Assembly (NCBI GenBank): GCA_001447805.1
Contig: CP013099.1
Location: forward strand, 3,459,181 to 3,523,180
DNA length: 64,000 nucleotides
Reading direction: 5' to 3'
Origin: Candidatus Tenderia electrophaga
GTDB taxonomy: Bacteria; Pseudomonadota; Gammaproteobacteria; Tenderiales; Tenderiaceae
The notes beneath the pieces were generated by a model. The model was not told the DNA's origin, searched no databases, and saw only the letters and a program-made list of their open reading frames with translations. Made by a program: the position numbers and the translations under genes. Shown in pieces: positions 19,401 to 29,998 of this stretch (within the stretch, counting starts at the first letter, position 1; each line of letters begins with the position of its first letter).

Positions 19401-19491
19401 GGGATCAATAGCGGATCAATGCGGATCACTAGCGGATCGGATCAATAAGATGGATCAATAGGGCCGGATTGACCCCATTGATCATTGATCC
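19401..19491. repeat. Cluster of short GGATCAAT repeats
   Basis: Six imperfect units of GGATCAAT or close variants follow one another at intervals of about 10 bases (19402-19460), then a TTGACCCCATTGATC motif and an inverted ATTGATCC. They lie downstream of the MscS gene; 19366-19739 has no gene on either strand that I can support. The units share their core with motifs at 17933, 28475 and 31283. Confidence 0.5.
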
Positions 19492-19739
19492 GAGTAAAGC
19501 AGAGAAATCCGGACTGAAGCCGCCATTTTAACCCAAAAATTGAGCCGTTAAGCACGATTTTGGGGCCCGGTTTCAGGATCAATATTCGATGAATCATATG
19601 GTTACGGCGGTCCGACCCTGGGCGGCTGCCCCCGGGGTGATAAACACCGTTCAATCGACGCTGTCTATTGTCAAATAGGTGGACTATCCTGACTGTCCGT
19701 CCGCAAATAATGCACAAAAACTGGCTTTGGAGATGAATT

Positions 19740-21050
19740 ATGAAACGATTCGGAATTTGGGTTTTGGCTGCATTATTCGGCGGCCAATTGGTTGGAATCT
19801 CACAAAATGCCTTGGCCCAGGCCAATGACCGGGAAGAGAGCCAAGGCATTGTTCTTCTGCGTTCTCTGCCGACGCTTAGCGACCATCACAGCGTCGCGAT
19901 CATAGAACTCGATCCCGAAGCCGAGACTTTTGGCGACATCATTCATGAGCATGAAATCGAAATCGAAGGGATGAAAGAACCGCTCCACCATCTCTACTAC
20001 AGCCCGCAAGGGCGTCTATATGCGACCGGTCTCGACGCCGCATGTAGTCTCGCGGAAATCGGTCTCCACCGGGGGGCGACCGGTTCGCCGAAGATCACGG
20101 GAGTGGACTGCATCGACACCAAAGGCATGACGGTCGGCGAAGACATCATGTGGCATATGTCCAAGGGGACCGAGTACATGTTCGTCACCTTCATGGGCGG
20201 CACCGGCGGCGATGACGGCGGGGCACTGGGTGTCTTCGATGCGCAGACCAACGAGGTCGTCAAGATCATCGAGGCCCGCAAATCGCAAGTTGGCGATGGC
20301 AAGCCTTATATCATGTATCCGCATGGCATCTCGGCCTATCAGGATCGCATGGTGATCTCCTCCACGATTCATCCGGATCTGGCCACCGGGGTCGGCAATA
20401 CGATCACCATCATTGACTTGAATACCCTCGAGCCCATCCAAACAATCACGGTGGAGGACGCGAAGCCGGTTGGCTTCCCGTCGTCGCCGGTCGAGGTGCT
20501 CTTTGTGCGTCCGTCTATCCATCCGGAGGCTGAACCGGCGGTTCTGGTCAACACGATGTTCGGCTTCGAGACCTGGAAGATTCCCTACGACGCCGATTCC
20601 AAAGAGTTCGGAACGCCTGTGGTCGTCTACAGCGGGGTTGAGAACAACACCGGTGTACCGCTGGAGTTCTATGGCAACAAAACCGATCTGTTCATCAGCC
20701 ATGCCTTGCCCGGGGTCGTGAAGCGCTATGATCTGTCGAAGCTCCCAGATTTGGTGCCGAGCGGCCCCGATATCGTCGCTGATCCTGGCGCGCATCATCT
20801 GATCTTCTATACGTCGAAATCGGGGCGTAATCTGATCGCCGTGCAGAACAATCTGTTGAATCTGGGGAACGCCGCGGACAAAGATCCGACCGACATAGAC
20901 TTTATCGCTTCGGTGAACGCACACACGATCAGCGTTCACGATCTCGAAACCGGCAAACGTCTTGCAACGGTGAATTTCAAGCAGCGTTATAAAAAAGGTG
21001 TGGAGTACGTCGATGCCTTGTTCGGTTCGGGTTTCGTCCACCATCACTAG
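19740..21050 (+). CDS. Periplasmic beta-propeller protein of an MbnP/MbnH-type operon
   Basis: 436 aa. Signal peptide ends at LAQA (residues 1-27). The mature part is made of repeating beta-sheets with GNTITIIDLNTLEPIQTI, GALGVFDAQTNEVVKII and HTISVHDLETGKRLATV, i.e. YVTN/WD40-like propeller blades. Conserved-looking His residues occur in EPLHHLYYSPQG, YPHGISAY, PGAHHLIFY and at the very end (VHHH). The size, the His pattern and the neighbouring di-haem gene recall the copper-containing methanethiol oxidase/selenium-binding protein group, but I cannot confirm this by eye. GGAG precedes the ATG. The next gene begins on the base after its stop. Confidence 0.7.
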   Translation: MKRFGIWVLAALFGGQLVGISQNALAQANDREESQGIVLLRSLPTLSDHHSVAIIELDPEAETFGDIIHEHEIEIEGMKEPLHHLYYSPQGRLYATGLDAACSLAEIGLHRGATGSPKITGVDCIDTKGMTVGEDIMWHMSKGTEYMFVTFMGGTGGDDGGALGVFDAQTNEVVKIIEARKSQVGDGKPYIMYPHGISAYQDRMVISSTIHPDLATGVGNTITIIDLNTLEPIQTITVEDAKPVGFPSSPVEVLFVRPSIHPEAEPAVLVNTMFGFETWKIPYDADSKEFGTPVVVYSGVENNTGVPLEFYGNKTDLFISHALPGVVKRYDLSKLPDLVPSGPDIVADPGAHHLIFYTSKSGRNLIAVQNNLLNLGNAADKDPTDIDFIASVNAHTISVHDLETGKRLATVNFKQRYKKGVEYVDALFGSGFVHHH

Positions 21051-22205
21051 GTGATTTCAAAGATTCGTCTTAACGTTTCGACAAGAGTAAAGGCGCTTTT
21101 CATCGGCGGTATCGGCCTTGTGGCTGCTGCCGCCGCTGGCGTGTATTTCTTACAGTCTCCTCCGGAGCCGACGCCGGTGGCCGATTTTTCGGCGCCCTTT
21201 GTGTTCGGGAAATTTTCGATTCCGAAGGATAATCCGCTGACCGAGGAAGGCTTCGAACTCGGTCGCCGGCTTTTTTACGATCCGCGCCTGTCAGGGCCAA
21301 ACACCACCTCTTGCGCCAGTTGTCATCTCCAAAAGCTCGCATTTACCGATGGGCTCGCGAACTCCGTCGGGGTGCACGGTGGCCAGACGGCGTTCAGTTC
21401 AATGAGCCTGGTAAACCTGTTATGGGGCCCTCAGCAGTTCTTTTGGAACGGCCGCGCGCAGAGTCTGGAAGACCAAGTTCTGCGTCCGATTCAGGATCCG
21501 ATCGAAATGGACCAGGACCTCGAACGCCTCGTCGAGGAGCTCCGCGAAGACGAGGTTTATCAACAGCTTTTTCGTGTTGCCTATGGCGGGGTTTCAGCCG
21601 ACGCCATAGCTAAGGCCCTGTCGACTTTCATGAGGATGCTGATTTCATCGAACTCGAAGTATGATCAGTTCCTGCGCGGGGAGCTCAGGCTGAGTGAACA
21701 GGAGGAGCTGGGCCGGAAGTTGTTCGTTGCGCATCCCGACGTCTCCGCATCCTTGCGCGGCGGCAATTGCGTCGACTGTCATGCGCAGTTCCATACCGCA
21801 GGGTTCTCCGACGGTCTCGACGGCTTCAGCAACAATGGATTGGACGTGGATGAAGACCTGCGGCCGGGGTTGATGACGGTGACCGGAAACTCTTCGGACC
21901 GTGGCAAGTTCAAGGTGCCGAGCCTTCGAAATATTGCGGTCACAGCGCCGTATATGCATGATGGCCGTTTCGCGACGCTGGAGGAGGTCATGGAACACTA
22001 CAATCGAAGGATTCAACATAGCGAAACGGTCAGTCCATTGATCCTGCAGGCCGACAACCAGAAGATCGACCCCGATGCGGCACAGGGATTGAATCTGGGG
22101 CCCGACGAGGTCGAGGCGATTATCGCGTTTCTCCATACCCTCACCGATGAACACTTTCTGTCGGATTCGAGATTCTCGGATCCGTTCGCCGGGGAACGCG
22201 AATGA
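21051..22205 (+). CDS. Di-haem cytochrome c peroxidase/MauG-family protein, MbnH-like
   Basis: 384 aa starting with GTG directly after the propeller stop. An N-terminal anchor or uncleaved signal spans residues 14-35. Haem site 1 is C88-A-S-C91-H92 in the context CHLQKLAFTDG; haem site 2 is C240-V-D-C243-H244 followed by AQFHTAGFSDG. The segment VPSLRNIAVTAPYMHDGRFATLE, read in two parts, is the standard second-domain signature with its Met/His ligand region. Members either reduce peroxide or, like MauG and MbnH, oxidise tryptophan in a partner protein. Its 4-bp overlap with an MbnP-like gene makes the second role the better guess. Confidence 0.9.
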   Translation: MISKIRLNVSTRVKALFIGGIGLVAAAAAGVYFLQSPPEPTPVADFSAPFVFGKFSIPKDNPLTEEGFELGRRLFYDPRLSGPNTTSCASCHLQKLAFTDGLANSVGVHGGQTAFSSMSLVNLLWGPQQFFWNGRAQSLEDQVLRPIQDPIEMDQDLERLVEELREDEVYQQLFRVAYGGVSADAIAKALSTFMRMLISSNSKYDQFLRGELRLSEQEELGRKLFVAHPDVSASLRGGNCVDCHAQFHTAGFSDGLDGFSNNGLDVDEDLRPGLMTVTGNSSDRGKFKVPSLRNIAVTAPYMHDGRFATLEEVMEHYNRRIQHSETVSPLILQADNQKIDPDAAQGLNLGPDEVEAIIAFLHTLTDEHFLSDSRFSDPFAGERE

Positions 22206-22930
22206 AAAAGTCATTTATGCTTGGCTGGGGTGTCGGCATGTTGGCCGCCGCCGCTGTTGCGGCGAGCGTTTACTGGTGGAGCCGCCCGACACAACTATCC
22301 CTGGTGTTTGCCGTAGAATTGGATGGTGCGCCGCTGGCCTTTGACGAGTATCGATACGACAACCCCGGCGGCGAGGGGACGTTCAAGATCAACGACTTCC
22401 GGTTCCTCGTTTCGAACCTGGTATTGGAGGGCAGTGGCGGTCGGTATGCTGTGCCCGACAGCTATCATCTTGCCCGTTTCGATAATGCCGCCCGGACTTA
22501 TGAAATTCGAATAGCCGAGATTCCTCTTCGACAGGTGGAAACGGTTCGGTTCTCGATCGGGGTCGACGAGAAGGCAAACACCTCGATCATGAGCGTGGGC
22601 GACCTGGACCCGAATAGCCGAATGGCCTGGAATTGGGAGATCGGGTACAAATTCATCCTGCTCGAAGGGGCGTTGAAAACTGCCCGGGAAAGCATCCCCC
22701 TGGCCTATCACGTCGGCTTTAGTGAAAACCGCCGCGACTTCGTTTTCAAAGCATCCGAACTTCAAACGCATGCCGGAGACGAACGCCTGTTTCTCAATGT
22801 CGACGTTATGAAGCTGTTCGTCGGCGATAAAAGGATCGATCTTTCGCAGATGCCATCCGTGATTATGAACAAAGAGGATGCCCGAACGGTCGCGGATAAT
22901 TACTCGGCATTGATCGCCCCCGTGGAATAG
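22202..22930 (+). CDS. MbnP-family copper-binding-type periplasmic protein
   Basis: 242 aa. An N-terminal membrane anchor lies at residues 7-27. The beta-sandwich shows the family landmarks in order: KINDFRFLVSNLVLEG (about 62-77), DSYHLARFD (H89), VRFSIGVDEKAN (about 115-126), GDLDPNSRMAWNWEIGYKFI (133-152, W143 and W145) and AYHVGF (H170). In MbnP of methanotrophs one tryptophan of the MxWxW region is turned into kynurenine by MbnH and helps bind Cu(I); the matching Trp residues are present. Unlike the four-Cys subgroup it has no cysteine at all. Translationally coupled to the di-haem gene (4-bp overlap). No methanobactin genes are nearby. Confidence 0.82.
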   Translation: MKKSFMLGWGVGMLAAAAVAASVYWWSRPTQLSLVFAVELDGAPLAFDEYRYDNPGGEGTFKINDFRFLVSNLVLEGSGGRYAVPDSYHLARFDNAARTYEIRIAEIPLRQVETVRFSIGVDEKANTSIMSVGDLDPNSRMAWNWEIGYKFILLEGALKTARESIPLAYHVGFSENRRDFVFKASELQTHAGDERLFLNVDVMKLFVGDKRIDLSQMPSVIMNKEDARTVADNYSALIAPVE

Positions 22931-22972
22931 CGAGCGCCTCTATAGTTTCCGGTTAGAGTAATAGGGGACCAA

Positions 22973-23167
22973 AATGGCACTACTTAAGCGGATTGAATTG
23001 CCAATTCAATAAGTTATCGACGGGTGCCTAGTAATTTCTTTTTACCCAATCTTATCTACGGTCAGTGAGTTGTGGGGGGGTTAGTCAAATTGCCGTTCGA
23101 AACCGGCACCGTCACTCACGTCATAACACAATGTATTTATTATATATTTCTTTAAGTAAGTGCCATT
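22973..23167. mobile_element. MITE-like relic with ends of the neighbouring IS4-type element
   Basis: AATGGCACTACTTAAG at 22973-22988 is the left end of the IS at 23179 with one base missing. TTTAAGTAAGTGCCATT at 23151-23167 is its right end with one change. The 160 bp between them do not encode anything and share only scraps (ACCGGCACC) with the IS. Inside is a 9-bp-arm palindrome ATTGAATTGCCAATTCAAT (22992-23010). Its right end is followed by TATCTGACC, the target sequence of the next IS. Confidence 0.55.
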
Positions 23168-23178
23168 AGTATCTGACC

Positions 23179-24683
23179 CGAATGGCACTTACTTAAGCCC
23201 AAGCACTTGATTATCAAATAGAAAGACCGGCACCATGGTAGGGTGTAAATCGCCAAACCCACAACCTACCAAAAGGAACCGGTCTCGATGAAGCTTAGCC
23301 ATACTGCCAAAAAACATCAACATACTCGAGTTGAGGCATACCGTGGAAACAGCAACAGCTATCGTTTCTTCAATCTTCTCACCAGCGACACGCTGCTGGA
23401 CAAAGTGGAAGCGCTCTTGCCCGAGCACCGGGAACGCCTCTATCCACCTACGGAAACCTTATCCATGTTCCTGGCCCAAGCCATGAGCGCCGATCGTTCC
23501 TGTCAGAGCATTGTTAACCAGGCAGCAGTCCAGCGACTCGCCGGCGGGTTTAGCGCCCGAAGCACATACACGGGTGGCTATTGTCGTGCCAGGCAACGGT
23601 TGCCTTTGACGATGGTCGCAGAACTGACCCAACATCTGGGCGACCAGCTTGACGAACGAGCGCCTGATGAATGGCAATGGCAGGGTCGACACATCAGGAT
23701 TATCGACGGCACCACCGTCACGATGCCCGACACGGCTGCCAACCAAGCCGTATTCCCACAACAACGCGGTCAACAGCCTGGTTTAGGGTTTCCCATTTGT
23801 CGCATCGTCGGCATCACCAGTCTGGCCAGCGGTGCGCTATTGAATGCAGCGATCGGCCGTTTCAACGGCAAGGGGGGTGACGAACAAACCCTGTTGCGCG
23901 CCATACAGAACACCTTGCAGCCCGGCGATATCGCGCTCGGCGATGCCTTCTTTGCCACCTATTTCTTTATTGCCGCCATGCAGGCCGACGGGATCGATAT
24001 TCTAATGGAGCAGAACGGTTCCAGAAAGCGCGTGACAGATTTTCGTCTCGGTCAAAGGCTGGGAGAACGCGATCATCTGATCCTGATCGACAAGCCCAAG
24101 CGACGACCGGAGTGGATGAGTGAAGAGGACTATAACGCGGCGCCAGAAAGACTCACGGTCAGGGAATTCCAGGCCGGCGGCAAAACAATGATCACGACTT
24201 TGGACGATCACAACAACTACCCGAAAGAGAAGCTAAAAGCCCTGTACAAAATGCGCTGGCATATCGAGCTGGACCTGCGCAACATCAAAGACACTATGGG
24301 CATGAATGTGCTCAGTTGCAAAACGCCCGAGATGGCGATCAAGGAAATATGGATCCATCTACTTGCCTATAACCTGATCCGCCTCATGATGGCACAATCC
24401 GCCTTGCTGGCGGATATCAGCCCAAGACGTATAAGTTTCAAGCACTGCTTGCAGATATGGCTGATCTATCTACAAAACGCGCAGTATTTGGATGATGAAT
24501 ATATCGGTTATTTATTCCGCATGATGGTGCAGAAAAAGGTGGGGAATCGTCCCGGCCGAATCGAACCGAGAGCGGTGAAGCGAAGACCGAAAGCCTATCC
24601 CTTATTGACGAGAACACGGCATGAAGCAAGAGCGGAAGTGATGAAAAATGGTCACCCTAAGAAGCTTAAGTAAGTGCCATTCG
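23179..24683 (+). mobile_element. IS4-family element A, copy 1
   Basis: 1505 bp with 19-bp perfect terminal inverted repeats CGAATGGCACTTACTTAAG and its reverse complement at 24665-24683. The direct 9-bp duplication TATCTGACC flanks it (23170-23178 and 24684-24692). A second copy lies at 28494-29998. Confidence 0.9.
23288..24673 (+). CDS. IS4-family transposase (element A, copy 1)
   Basis: 461-aa DDE transposase filling the element; its last codons reach the right inverted repeat. The first catalytic Asp is in IRIIDGTTVTMPD, the second in ALGDAFFATYF, and the Glu in the IS4 signature YKMRWHIELDLRNIK, which fits Y-x2-R-x3-E-x6-K exactly. It catalyses cut-and-paste transposition of its own element. 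It differs from the second copy at two residues (I instead of V in LILIDKP, and A instead of T in EDYNAAP). It looks intact and active. Confidence 0.93.
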   Translation: MKLSHTAKKHQHTRVEAYRGNSNSYRFFNLLTSDTLLDKVEALLPEHRERLYPPTETLSMFLAQAMSADRSCQSIVNQAAVQRLAGGFSARSTYTGGYCRARQRLPLTMVAELTQHLGDQLDERAPDEWQWQGRHIRIIDGTTVTMPDTAANQAVFPQQRGQQPGLGFPICRIVGITSLASGALLNAAIGRFNGKGGDEQTLLRAIQNTLQPGDIALGDAFFATYFFIAAMQADGIDILMEQNGSRKRVTDFRLGQRLGERDHLILIDKPKRRPEWMSEEDYNAAPERLTVREFQAGGKTMITTLDDHNNYPKEKLKALYKMRWHIELDLRNIKDTMGMNVLSCKTPEMAIKEIWIHLLAYNLIRLMMAQSALLADISPRRISFKHCLQIWLIYLQNAQYLDDEYIGYLFRMMVQKKVGNRPGRIEPRAVKRRPKAYPLLTRTRHEARAEVMKNGHPKKLK

Positions 24684-25097: not shown

Positions 25098-26370
25098 CAC
25101 TGCTGTCCCATAAACATGGAATAAAAAAGGCTTAAATCCCAACAAGTTGTTACAATGAAAGTGCGACCAAACACTGTAATAACAGAGAGATTTAAGCCAT
25201 GGCACATCATAATACTATTTTCGCACAATTGCTAAAATTCGTACCGAGACATGAATTTGAAAGCCTCTCAAAAACGCATCATGAAGGTAGACAGTTGCGG
25301 AAAACAAGCCGCTGGTCCCAGTTTGTCGCGTTGTCTCTGGGGCAATTGGCAGGCCGCCATAGCCTAAGGGATATTGAGAGCAATATGAGCGCACAATCCA
25401 GTCGTCTTTATCACTTAGGAGCCAAACCCATTGCACGCTCAAGCCTGGCCAGATTAAATGAAAAGCAACCTGCTAAGTTATATGAGGCCTTGTTTGCAAA
25501 GCTTTATGCCAACTGTCAGAAGCTGACGTCCGGCCACCGGTTCCGTTTCAAGAACAAGCTCTATTCATTAGACGCCTCCTTGATTGACTTATCACTAAAA
25601 ATATTTCCCTGGGCCCACTATGCCTTGGGAAAATCAGCAATGAAACTCCACCTGAGTTTAGATCATGATGGATACATCCCGAATTTCGCAGCTATTACCG
25701 AAGGTAAAGCATCCGATATAGAAATAGGGAGAACACTCCACTATAGCAAAGGCAGCATCGTCGTCTTTGACAAAGGATATACGGACTATGAATGGTTTAA
25801 GGCCCTTAATAACAAGGGTATTTTCTTTGTTACCCGGATCAGGAAGAATGCCATATGGAAGATTGAAGAGCGAAGAGCCGTCGATAAATCCAAAGGACTG
25901 ACATCGGATCAAACAATCGTTTTAACAGGTGTTAAGCCAAAAAAGATCGGCATGCCAAAGCTACGACGAATTGGCTATCGAGATCCTGAGAGCGGAAAAG
26001 CCTATGAGTTCCTGACAAATAATTTCGCTTTAAGTGCACAGACCATCGCAGAGATTTATAAAGAACGGTGGCAAGTAGAATTATTCTTCAAATGGATCAA
26101 ACAAAATCTAAAGATCAAGGCCTTCGTGGGCAATAGCAAGAATGCCATTATGACGCAGATATGGATCGCGCTCTGTACCTATTTGATACTGGCCTATTTG
26201 AAATTCAGTGCCAAGCTAGGATGGTCCTTACAAAGTATGTTGCGATTATTGCATCTGAATTTGTTTCTACGAAGAGACCTGATGGCATTACTTCGTGGTG
26301 ATCCGCCAAAACAAAATGCTCTGGAAATACGGCAGCTATGCTTGGTGTAAAAGTTTATGGGACAGCAGTG
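25098..26370 (+). mobile_element. IS4-family element B, copy 1
   Basis: 1273 bp with 18-bp perfect inverted ends CACTGCTGTCCCATAAAC (25098-25115) and its complement (26353-26370). It is flanked by the 9-bp duplication GGTTGTACT (25089-25097 and 26371-26379) and interrupts a membrane protein gene. An apparently identical copy is at 30008-31280. Confidence 0.93.
25199..26350 (+). CDS. IS4-family transposase, DUF4372 type (element B, copy 1)
   Basis: 383 aa. The N-terminal DUF4372-like region (MAHHNTIFAQLLKFVPRHEF, FVALSLGQLAGRHSLRDIE) is followed by the DDE domain: LYSLDASLIDLSL for the first Asp, IVVFDKGYTDYEWF for the second, and YKERWQVELFFKWIK for the Glu, matching Y-x2-R-x3-E-x6-K. Distinct from element A in sequence and size. 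Protein identical to copy 2, so both insertions are recent. Confidence 0.93.
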   Translation: MAHHNTIFAQLLKFVPRHEFESLSKTHHEGRQLRKTSRWSQFVALSLGQLAGRHSLRDIESNMSAQSSRLYHLGAKPIARSSLARLNEKQPAKLYEALFAKLYANCQKLTSGHRFRFKNKLYSLDASLIDLSLKIFPWAHYALGKSAMKLHLSLDHDGYIPNFAAITEGKASDIEIGRTLHYSKGSIVVFDKGYTDYEWFKALNNKGIFFVTRIRKNAIWKIEERRAVDKSKGLTSDQTIVLTGVKPKKIGMPKLRRIGYRDPESGKAYEFLTNNFALSAQTIAEIYKERWQVELFFKWIKQNLKIKAFVGNSKNAIMTQIWIALCTYLILAYLKFSAKLGWSLQSMLRLLHLNLFLRRDLMALLRGDPPKQNALEIRQLCLV

Positions 26371-28493: not shown

Positions 28494-29998
28494 CGAATGG
28501 CACTTACTTAAGCCCAAGCACTTGATTATCAAATAGAAAGACCGGCACCATGGTAGGGTGTAAATCGCCAAACCCACAACCTACCAAAAGGAACCGGTCT
28601 CGATGAAGCTTAGCCATACTGCCAAAAAACATCAACATACTCGAGTTGAGGCATACCGTGGAAACAGCAACAGCTATCGTTTCTTCAATCTTCTCACCAG
28701 CGACACGCTGCTGGACAAAGTGGAAGCGCTCTTGCCCGAGCACCGGGAACGCCTCTATCCACCTACGGAAACCTTATCCATGTTCCTGGCCCAAGCCATG
28801 AGCGCCGATCGTTCCTGTCAGAGCATTGTTAACCAGGCAGCAGTCCAGCGACTCGCCGGCGGGTTTAGCGCCCGAAGCACATACACGGGTGGCTATTGTC
28901 GTGCCAGGCAACGGTTGCCTTTGACGATGGTCGCAGAACTGACCCAACATCTGGGCGACCAGCTTGACGAACGAGCGCCTGATGAATGGCAATGGCAGGG
29001 TCGACACATCAGGATTATCGACGGCACCACCGTCACGATGCCCGACACGGCTGCCAACCAAGCCGTATTCCCACAACAACGCGGTCAACAGCCTGGTTTA
29101 GGGTTTCCCATTTGTCGCATCGTCGGCATCACCAGTCTGGCCAGCGGTGCGCTATTGAATGCAGCGATCGGCCGTTTCAACGGCAAGGGGGGTGACGAAC
29201 AAACCCTGTTGCGCGCCATACAGAACACCTTGCAGCCCGGTGATATCGCGCTCGGCGATGCCTTCTTTGCCACCTATTTCTTTATTGCCGCCATGCAGGC
29301 CGACGGGATCGATATTCTAATGGAGCAGAACGGTTCCAGAAAGCGCGTGACAGATTTTCGTCTCGGTCAAAGGCTGGGAGAACGCGATCATCTGATCGTG
29401 ATCGACAAGCCCAAGCGACGACCGGAGTGGATGAGTGAAGAGGACTATAACACGGCGCCAGAAAGACTCACGGTCAGGGAATTCCAGGCCGGCGGCAAAA
29501 CAATGATCACGACTTTGGACGATCACAACAACTACCCGAAAGAGAAGCTAAAAGCCCTGTACAAAATGCGCTGGCATATCGAGCTGGACCTGCGCAACAT
29601 CAAAGACACTATGGGCATGAATGTGCTCAGTTGCAAAACGCCCGAGATGGCGATCAAGGAAATATGGATCCATCTACTTGCCTATAACCTGATCCGCCTC
29701 ATGATGGCACAATCCGCCTTGCTGGCGGATATCAGCCCAAGACGTATAAGTTTCAAGCACTGCTTGCAGATATGGCTGATCTATCTACAAAACGCGCAGT
29801 ATTTGGATGATGAATATATCGGTTATTTATTCCGCATGATGGTGCAGAAAAAGGTGGGGAATCGTCCCGGCCGAATCGAACCGAGAGCGGTGAAGCGAAG
29901 ACCGAAAGCCTATCCCTTATTGACGAGAACACGGCATGAAGCAAGAGCGGAAGTGATGAAAAATGGTCACCCTAAGAAGCTTAAGTAAGTGCCATTCG
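28494..29998 (+). mobile_element. IS4-family element A, copy 2
   Basis: Same 1505-bp element and 19-bp ends as at 23179. The flanks are not a direct duplication: left GGTCAGATA, right ACTCTGACC. The left flank is the reverse complement of TATCTGACC, the duplication around copy 1. Confidence 0.9.
28603..29988 (+). CDS. IS4-family transposase (element A, copy 2)
   Basis: 461 aa with the same DDE and YREK signatures as the first copy (IRIIDGTTVTMPD, ALGDAFFATYF, YKMRWHIELDLRNIK). Two amino-acid differences and at least one silent base change separate the copies, so they are not the product of a very recent duplication. Intact. Confidence 0.93.
   Translation: MKLSHTAKKHQHTRVEAYRGNSNSYRFFNLLTSDTLLDKVEALLPEHRERLYPPTETLSMFLAQAMSADRSCQSIVNQAAVQRLAGGFSARSTYTGGYCRARQRLPLTMVAELTQHLGDQLDERAPDEWQWQGRHIRIIDGTTVTMPDTAANQAVFPQQRGQQPGLGFPICRIVGITSLASGALLNAAIGRFNGKGGDEQTLLRAIQNTLQPGDIALGDAFFATYFFIAAMQADGIDILMEQNGSRKRVTDFRLGQRLGERDHLIVIDKPKRRPEWMSEEDYNTAPERLTVREFQAGGKTMITTLDDHNNYPKEKLKALYKMRWHIELDLRNIKDTMGMNVLSCKTPEMAIKEIWIHLLAYNLIRLMMAQSALLADISPRRISFKHCLQIWLIYLQNAQYLDDEYIGYLFRMMVQKKVGNRPGRIEPRAVKRRPKAYPLLTRTRHEARAEVMKNGHPKKLK

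Follow-up and report, generated by a model that had tools for sequence, protein, structure and literature searches.

A beta-propeller distantly related to methanethiol oxidase heads a three-gene unit with MbnH-type and MbnP-type genes that looks like an undescribed periplasmic copper system

In a 64,000-nucleotide stretch of the Candidatus Tenderia electrophaga genome (contig CP013099.1; hereafter the window), three adjacent genes encode a secreted beta-propeller, a di-haem cytochrome and an MbnP-type protein, and the set has the look of a periplasmic copper system not described before, related to the MbnH-MbnP pair as well as to methanethiol oxidase; an earlier mention of propellers in the primary papers on MbnP (Manesis 2021) or MbnH (Kenney 2019) is possible. 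The propeller belongs, almost invariably, to a mobile, or at least portable, three-gene unit and is not a chance neighbour of the pair. All three genes are co-directional and abut or overlap by 4 bp, with the same open reading frames as in an earlier note made from the letters of the window:

19740..21050, + strand: secreted seven-bladed beta-propeller, 436 aa; signal peptide ending ...NALA/QA as judged by eye
21051..22205, + strand: di-haem MauG/MbnH-type cytochrome, 384 aa; N-terminal membrane anchor as judged by eye
22202..22930, + strand: MbnP-type protein, 242 aa, no cysteine; N-terminal anchor helix at residues 3-27 in the model

The di-haem frame opens with a GTG immediately 3' of the propeller TAG, and its junction with the MbnP gene is an ATGA. 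The 4 bp overlap, together with an intact MAWNW, bears out the earlier description of a di-haem gene overlapping an MbnP gene that keeps its MxWxW segment.

A propeller-based scan of 84,980 species genomes recovered 37 loci with propellers 64-76% identical, a lower bound in that the scan relied on short exact peptide patterns. The di-haem gene lies directly 3' of the propeller in 34 of these loci, and 33/37, from Alpha- and Gammaproteobacteria, show the complete trio with order and strand unchanged; among the four incomplete loci, L021, L032 and L033 are cut off by the contig end, and in L006 the propeller stands alone, a case to which we return below. The holders are mostly marine taxa and include Ruegeria, Leisingera, Alteromonas, Bowmanella, Colwellia, Thalassotalea, Simiduia, Vibrio sagamiensis and a SAR86 metagenome-assembled genome, among others. 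Flanking genes are common only to closely related strains and are otherwise unrelated, and no regulator or transporter is common to all loci, the pair being all that is conserved beside the propeller. Among sampled genomes of the phylum, a close propeller was found in 1 of 397 others, at a locus (L100) that also has the propeller before MbnH and MbnP, a sampling that suggests the three-gene module is rare; PLSDB yielded no plasmid-borne copy. The three proteins have correlated pairwise distances (r 0.71-0.79; 0/2000 permutations), as is expected from shared descent alone too. Because the propeller is near-constant in the unit, the evidence favours the idea that the pair serves it over that of an incidental neighbour.

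The pair resembles MbnH-MbnP but falls below the NCBIfam cut-offs for it. For the MbnP-type protein, Pfam MbnP (PF20243) gives 122.5 bits against a cut-off of 27, and NCBIfam TIGR04052 gives 34.5 against a cut-off of 140; VIA-align superposes its model on MbnP 7l6g of Methylosinus trichosporium with Z 16.3 and a root-mean-square deviation (rmsd) of 3.2 over 202 residues, the next entry reaching Z 4.8. For the di-haem protein, Pfam CCP_MauG (PF03150) gives 194.5 bits and the best solved relative is MbnH (6e1c, E 1.8e-59), while the score for the MbnH family TIGR04039 is 266 bits against a cut-off of 362.85. The residues on which the comparison turns are as follows:

21312..21326, + strand: haem motif 1, CASCH (C88-H92)
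21768..21782, + strand: haem motif 2, CVDCH (C240-H244)
21999..22001, + strand: Y317, axial Tyr of the MauG/MbnH type, Met in the Nitrosomonas-type peroxidase 1iqc
22622..22636, + strand: MxWxW segment M141-A-W143-N-W145, aligned to MAWNW of 7l6g, with W143 the predicted kynurenine site
22709..22711, + strand: H170, which the alignment pairs with the HLGS His of canonical MbnP, a probable copper ligand

In the module the axial Tyr is invariant among di-haem proteins (MbnH has Tyr at this position, 1iqc Met), and M141, W143, W145 and H170 are invariant in 24/24 MbnPs, H170 aligning with the His of VHVGSTGC in 7l6g. Manesis et al. reportedly described in 2021 how the first Trp of the segment becomes kynurenine, which is said to form the Cu(I) site with a His and a Met; the ligands that we name in the window's MbnP are candidates drawn from this background and the alignment. 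In an unrooted tree the module di-haem proteins form a clade apart from both canonical MbnH and the MauG that accompanies methanethiol oxidase (support 1.000), so that the latter, considered as close kin, was set aside, and they keep FW(D/N)GR as in 1iqc where MbnH has TWAN. This separate clade and this motif suggest that the protein is MauG/MbnH-like, in keeping with the type claimed for it beforehand, rather than MbnH by membership. Likewise, the absence of cysteine, which had been taken to define a subgroup, is usual in the module subgroup but does not define it, since a lipobox Cys or, at the C-terminus, a Cys pair is present in several of its proteins; the four-Cys motif is missing from the window's MbnP (0 Cys), against 7-9 Cys in canonical MbnPs.

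Comparison with the canonical "metallo-mystery pair" (TIGR04039/TIGR04052) sharpens both sides of this likeness. A di-haem MauG-like gene adjoining an MbnP fold, the MxWxW segment, the HLGS-type His and the axial Tyr are common to the two. In all 14 canonical pairs counted by six-frame search in sampled genomes (L085-L093, L095-L099), however, MbnP precedes MbnH and there is no propeller, as the earlier note had supposed in keeping the propeller out of the known pair, whereas in the module MbnH stands first and a propeller is added. Missing conserved cysteines, a separate di-haem clade, two missed NCBIfam cut-offs and the lack of methanobactin complete the differences. The absence of methanobactin genes was likewise correctly foreseen: no MbnB/TglH/ChrH homologue (PF05114) was matched in the whole genome, and on this ground the reading of the operon as a methanobactin remnant was rejected. 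Among canonical MbnP loci, 14/15 have MbnH adjoining, and in the remaining one (L094:5310-6131, minus strand) both Trp of WxW and the HLGS His are lost and no MbnH lies within 12 kb, a natural case that supports coupling of the Trp and His to MbnH. We also observed that in eight canonical pairs (L086, L088, L090, L092, L095, L097, L098 and L099) a divergent secreted protein of ~900 aa (HDKARFVA...RPCKTI) adjoins, and that a small protein (SGRNTIIHK.RKLDLL..NGD) lies near some of them as well.

The propeller, with 19 His in 436 aa and first of the three genes, is the His-rich beta-propeller expected at the start of the operon. Its AlphaFold model, built from a shallow alignment of 27 close sequences, has seven blades (mean predicted local distance difference test score, pLDDT, 77; predicted template modelling score 0.81). 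Pfam SBP56 (PF05694) gives 15.6 bits against a cut-off of 34, and a weak match to the same family recurs in 26/27 module propellers (best E 4.8e-5). Foldseek ranked SBP56 of Sulfolobus tokodaii (2ece) first at E 1.8e-9, the next entry being at 4.8e-8, while the VIA-align superposition on 2ece (Z 25.4, rmsd 3.4, 343 residues) is tied with those on other seven-bladed propellers; thiocyanate dehydrogenase and AztD, considered as relatives, are among the fold matches but far below SBP56. Against 22 SBP56 sequences, hhalign gave a probability of 93.4% over 343 columns, rising to 96.5% (E 7e-10) after a distant relative was added, with reversed-profile controls at 0.3-0.4%; a single-sequence search of PDB chains returned nothing reliable, and a profile search returned a weak 2ece match only. 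The distant relative, at locus L074, has 394 aa, is 31% identical, is found in its genome by the module profile at E 5.7e-26 and also weakly matches the SBP56 and MtoX models; because it matches both, it bridges the module propeller and SBP56. At this locus (L074:4844-7504, minus strand) it stands in a two-gene arrangement with a membrane-like protein of 472 aa without a Pfam match. The C-terminal signature of SBP56 is absent from the module propeller. Judged from sequence, then, the propeller represents a new family, sister to SBP56/methanethiol oxidase and, by the Pfam test, outside it. The source genome has no SBP56 match that would indicate a true MtoX, and a true SBP56 above the cut-off occurs also in 6/23 module genomes searched, so the module is no replacement for MtoX.

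Within this fold, conservation counted over the 27 sequences and strand placement taken from the model point to a metal site in the central channel:

19986..19991, + strand: H83-H84, innermost strand of blade 2; counterpart of MtoX His89/His90 and SELENBP1 H73/H74, LHH aligned to LHH
20139..20144, + strand: E134-D135, innermost strand of blade 3, at the SBP56 HxxH position
20322..20324, + strand: H195, innermost strand of blade 4, in the SELENBP1 D189 region, exact equivalence uncertain
20493..20495, + strand: E252, innermost strand of blade 5; counterpart of the PLEV Glu of SBP56 and of SELENBP1 E252
20664..20666, + strand: E309, innermost strand of blade 6
20793..20798, + strand: H352-H353, innermost strand of blade 7
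21039..21047, + strand: C-terminal His triplet H434-H436, pLDDT <50

Nine His, Asp and Glu on six of the seven innermost strands are invariant (27/27), so that the propeller, as had been proposed, looks like a metalloprotein. The distant L074 relative keeps 9/9 of these, as against 5/18 of the invariant His/Asp/Glu/Cys elsewhere (Fisher p 0.0006). In the C-terminal triplet, H435 and H436 are invariant in the 27 sequences, the L074 relative keeping H436 only. The copper-dependent oxidase activity of SELENBP1 requires H73, H74, H137, H140, D189 and E252 (PMC10362175), and His89, His90, His140 and His412 are the proposed ligands of MtoX (PMC5739008). Set against the SELENBP1 copper site, the propeller keeps the HH pair of the XHHX motif and the channel Glu (H83-H84 and E252 aligned), has G-E-D-I-M-W aligned in place of HxxH, and adds H195, E309 and H352-H353; by our reading H195 lies on the same strand as D189, while automatic alignment puts the two three positions apart. 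The comparison of predicted structure and His sites with SBP56/MtoX that the earlier note had proposed thus ends with 2ece as best fold, the HH pair kept and HxxH replaced. Of its suggestion that the propeller might be methanethiol oxidase there remains a distant SBP56/MtoX relation; a score below the Pfam cut-off, the lack of HxxH and the lack of the C-terminal signature tell against the identification itself.

A parallel in layout is the mtoX operon, in which a propeller, SCO1/SenC and MauG are encoded together (PMC5739008; PMC6548844). That MauG-type genes stand beside methanethiol oxidase genes had been stated correctly: it holds for the published mtoX-SCO1-mauG (PMC5739008) and for loci L108-L110, which have the same type of arrangement. 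Both systems place the genes for a MauG-type di-haem protein and for a protein that handles copper after that of an SBP56-superfamily propeller; in the module, MbnP takes the place of SCO1, and the propeller is distant, its metal site re-modelled. At one such locus (L108:2293-7024, minus strand) we noted two di-haem MauG-type genes in tandem, the product of one being 625 aa long and possibly a SCO1-MauG fusion. The methanotroph pairs CorA-CorB and MopE-SACCP likewise join a Trp-to-kynurenine copper site to a co-transcribed di-haem partner, but the copper protein is described as without marked sequence similarity to MbnP, and a propeller is not described (PMC3912023, PMC3621798). Thiocyanate dehydrogenase shares a periplasmic seven-bladed propeller with copper in its central channel (PMC9456337; rank 50 among our fold matches), but has a three-copper centre, and no sequence relation to the module propeller was detected.

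Taken together, one could envision the following chain. By analogy with the characterised MbnH, the di-haem protein would probably oxidise W143 of the observed MAWNW to kynurenine, and the membrane-anchored, modified MbnP would then, somewhat less surely, bind one Cu(I) through M141, H170 and Kyn143, residues that are themselves observed. That H83, H84, E134, D135, H195, E252, E309, H352 and H353 form a metal site in the central channel of the propeller seems highly probable, given their observed conservation and strand placement; that the metal is copper would be likely, at about the level of the preceding step. From the conservation of the operon and its likeness to mtoX-SCO1-mauG we infer that MbnP supplies copper to the propeller: once matured by MbnH it might supply or protect that copper, as SCO1 would beside methanethiol oxidase, a step on which we are evenly divided. 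The last step, in which the loaded propeller would act as a small-molecule copper oxidoreductase of the SBP56 superfamily, is doubtful, and a thiol substrate is about equally so. The chain from MbnH through MbnP kynurenine and Cu(I) to a propeller oxidoreductase, as read from sequence, is one to which we would give an even chance overall.

Several points weigh against this chain. The homology between the propeller and SBP56 is at twilight level, and the channel metal site is a prediction resting on strand assignment and conservation; because the HxxH copper ligands of SBP56 are replaced, the propeller metal could differ. The lone propeller of L006 (5938-7269) has no pair, is followed within 2 kb by phage-type genes including a terminase-like protein, and belongs to a genome in which no MbnP was found, and no MbnH or MbnP lies near the L074 relative; from these two cases it follows that the propeller site is not strictly dependent on the pair. 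To our knowledge, MbnP has no known client enzyme in the characterised systems.

Alternatively, the unit could serve copper acquisition or storage, the propeller being a periplasmic or lipoprotein chaperone or scavenger that binds metal with high affinity (compare AztD, for zinc) and MbnP a second carrier. The fold matches include AztD and B12-binding surface propellers, several gammaproteobacterial members have a lipobox on the propeller, the C-terminal His triplet would suit such a role, MbnPH-like genes occur in copper-homeostasis operons (PMC9426467), and the kynurenine proteins of the CorA/MopE type are surface copper proteins (PMC3912023). We nevertheless think it unlikely: the genes conserved beside the module include no TonB receptor, ABC transporter or copper regulator, the inner-strand mix of His, Glu and Asp is closer to the enzyme-like SBP56 site than to a Cu(I) carrier, and the propeller keeps the HH and the Glu on which SELENBP1 activity depends. 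Less probable again is that the di-haem protein modifies the propeller itself to form a Trp-derived cofactor, as proposed for MauG beside MtoX, with MbnP as the copper donor. W138 and W279 are invariant in module propellers and absent from the pair-less L074 relative, a difference that may be clade-specific, the lone L006 propeller keeping both; the modifiable segment of MbnP, for its part, is complete and without variation in 24 members. MbnH, the best characterised di-haem relative, reportedly acts on MbnP (Manesis et al., 2021), which counts against modification of the propeller. Although a tryptophan tryptophylquinone was proposed in MtoX (PMC5739008), SELENBP1 produced in Escherichia coli is active with copper (PMC10362175).

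That the propeller is simply a divergent MtoX would fit the weak SBP56 match in nearly all module propellers, the fold and profile similarity, and the mostly marine holders, Ruegeria included; we consider it very improbable in view of the sub-threshold Pfam score, the replacement of HxxH by E-D..W, the missing C-terminal signature, the 6/23 holders that also have a true SBP56, and the conservation of only the pair beside the propeller. Slightly less credit still is due to the reading of the di-haem protein as an ordinary cytochrome c peroxidase whose neighbours are not its substrates: the CCP_MauG family includes peroxidases, and FW(D/N)GR of 1iqc is kept in place of the MbnH TWAN, but the axial Met is replaced by an invariant Tyr, as in MbnH, and MbnP is always next wherever the contig continues.

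The surroundings of the operon bear on how it came to be in the window. The propeller is held by 0/10 same-genus or same-family genomes of this lineage, and genes for insertion sequence-type DDE transposases lie directly 3' of the operon (23288-24673, 25199-26350 and 28603-29988); these two observations make horizontal acquisition of the operon likely here. The first and third transposases are nearly identical copies, whereas the second belongs to another type (PF14294 + PF01609). Between operon and transposases, TTAAGTAAGTGCCATT forms a perfect 16-bp inverted repeat with 13 bp between its arms (23152-23196), with a related sequence at 22967, and is probably a mobile-element end. On the 5' side of the propeller there are five GGATCAATAG-like 10-mers with inverted counterparts (19402-19461 and 19576-19585), perhaps the remnant of a small repeat element; in the region upstream of the operon, the candidate promoter signal was no better than shuffles.

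For the role of the MbnH-MbnP pair outside methanobactin operons the module offers, in a self-contained operon with one propeller and in culturable Ruegeria, Leisingera and Alteromonas, a concrete candidate client. If the proposed chain is true, the propeller would be the first client enzyme for the pair, and MbnP an enzyme-loading chaperone; we would only tentatively go on to speak of a new family of periplasmic copper enzymes that have five His, three Glu and one Asp in their channel site and receive copper from a dedicated donor, a kynurenine-copper MbnP matured in the same operon. Such a system suggests a role for protein-derived kynurenine copper sites in the loading of copper enzymes, and with it the SBP56/SELENBP1 copper propellers, whose metal site and maturation are still debated, gain a sister family.

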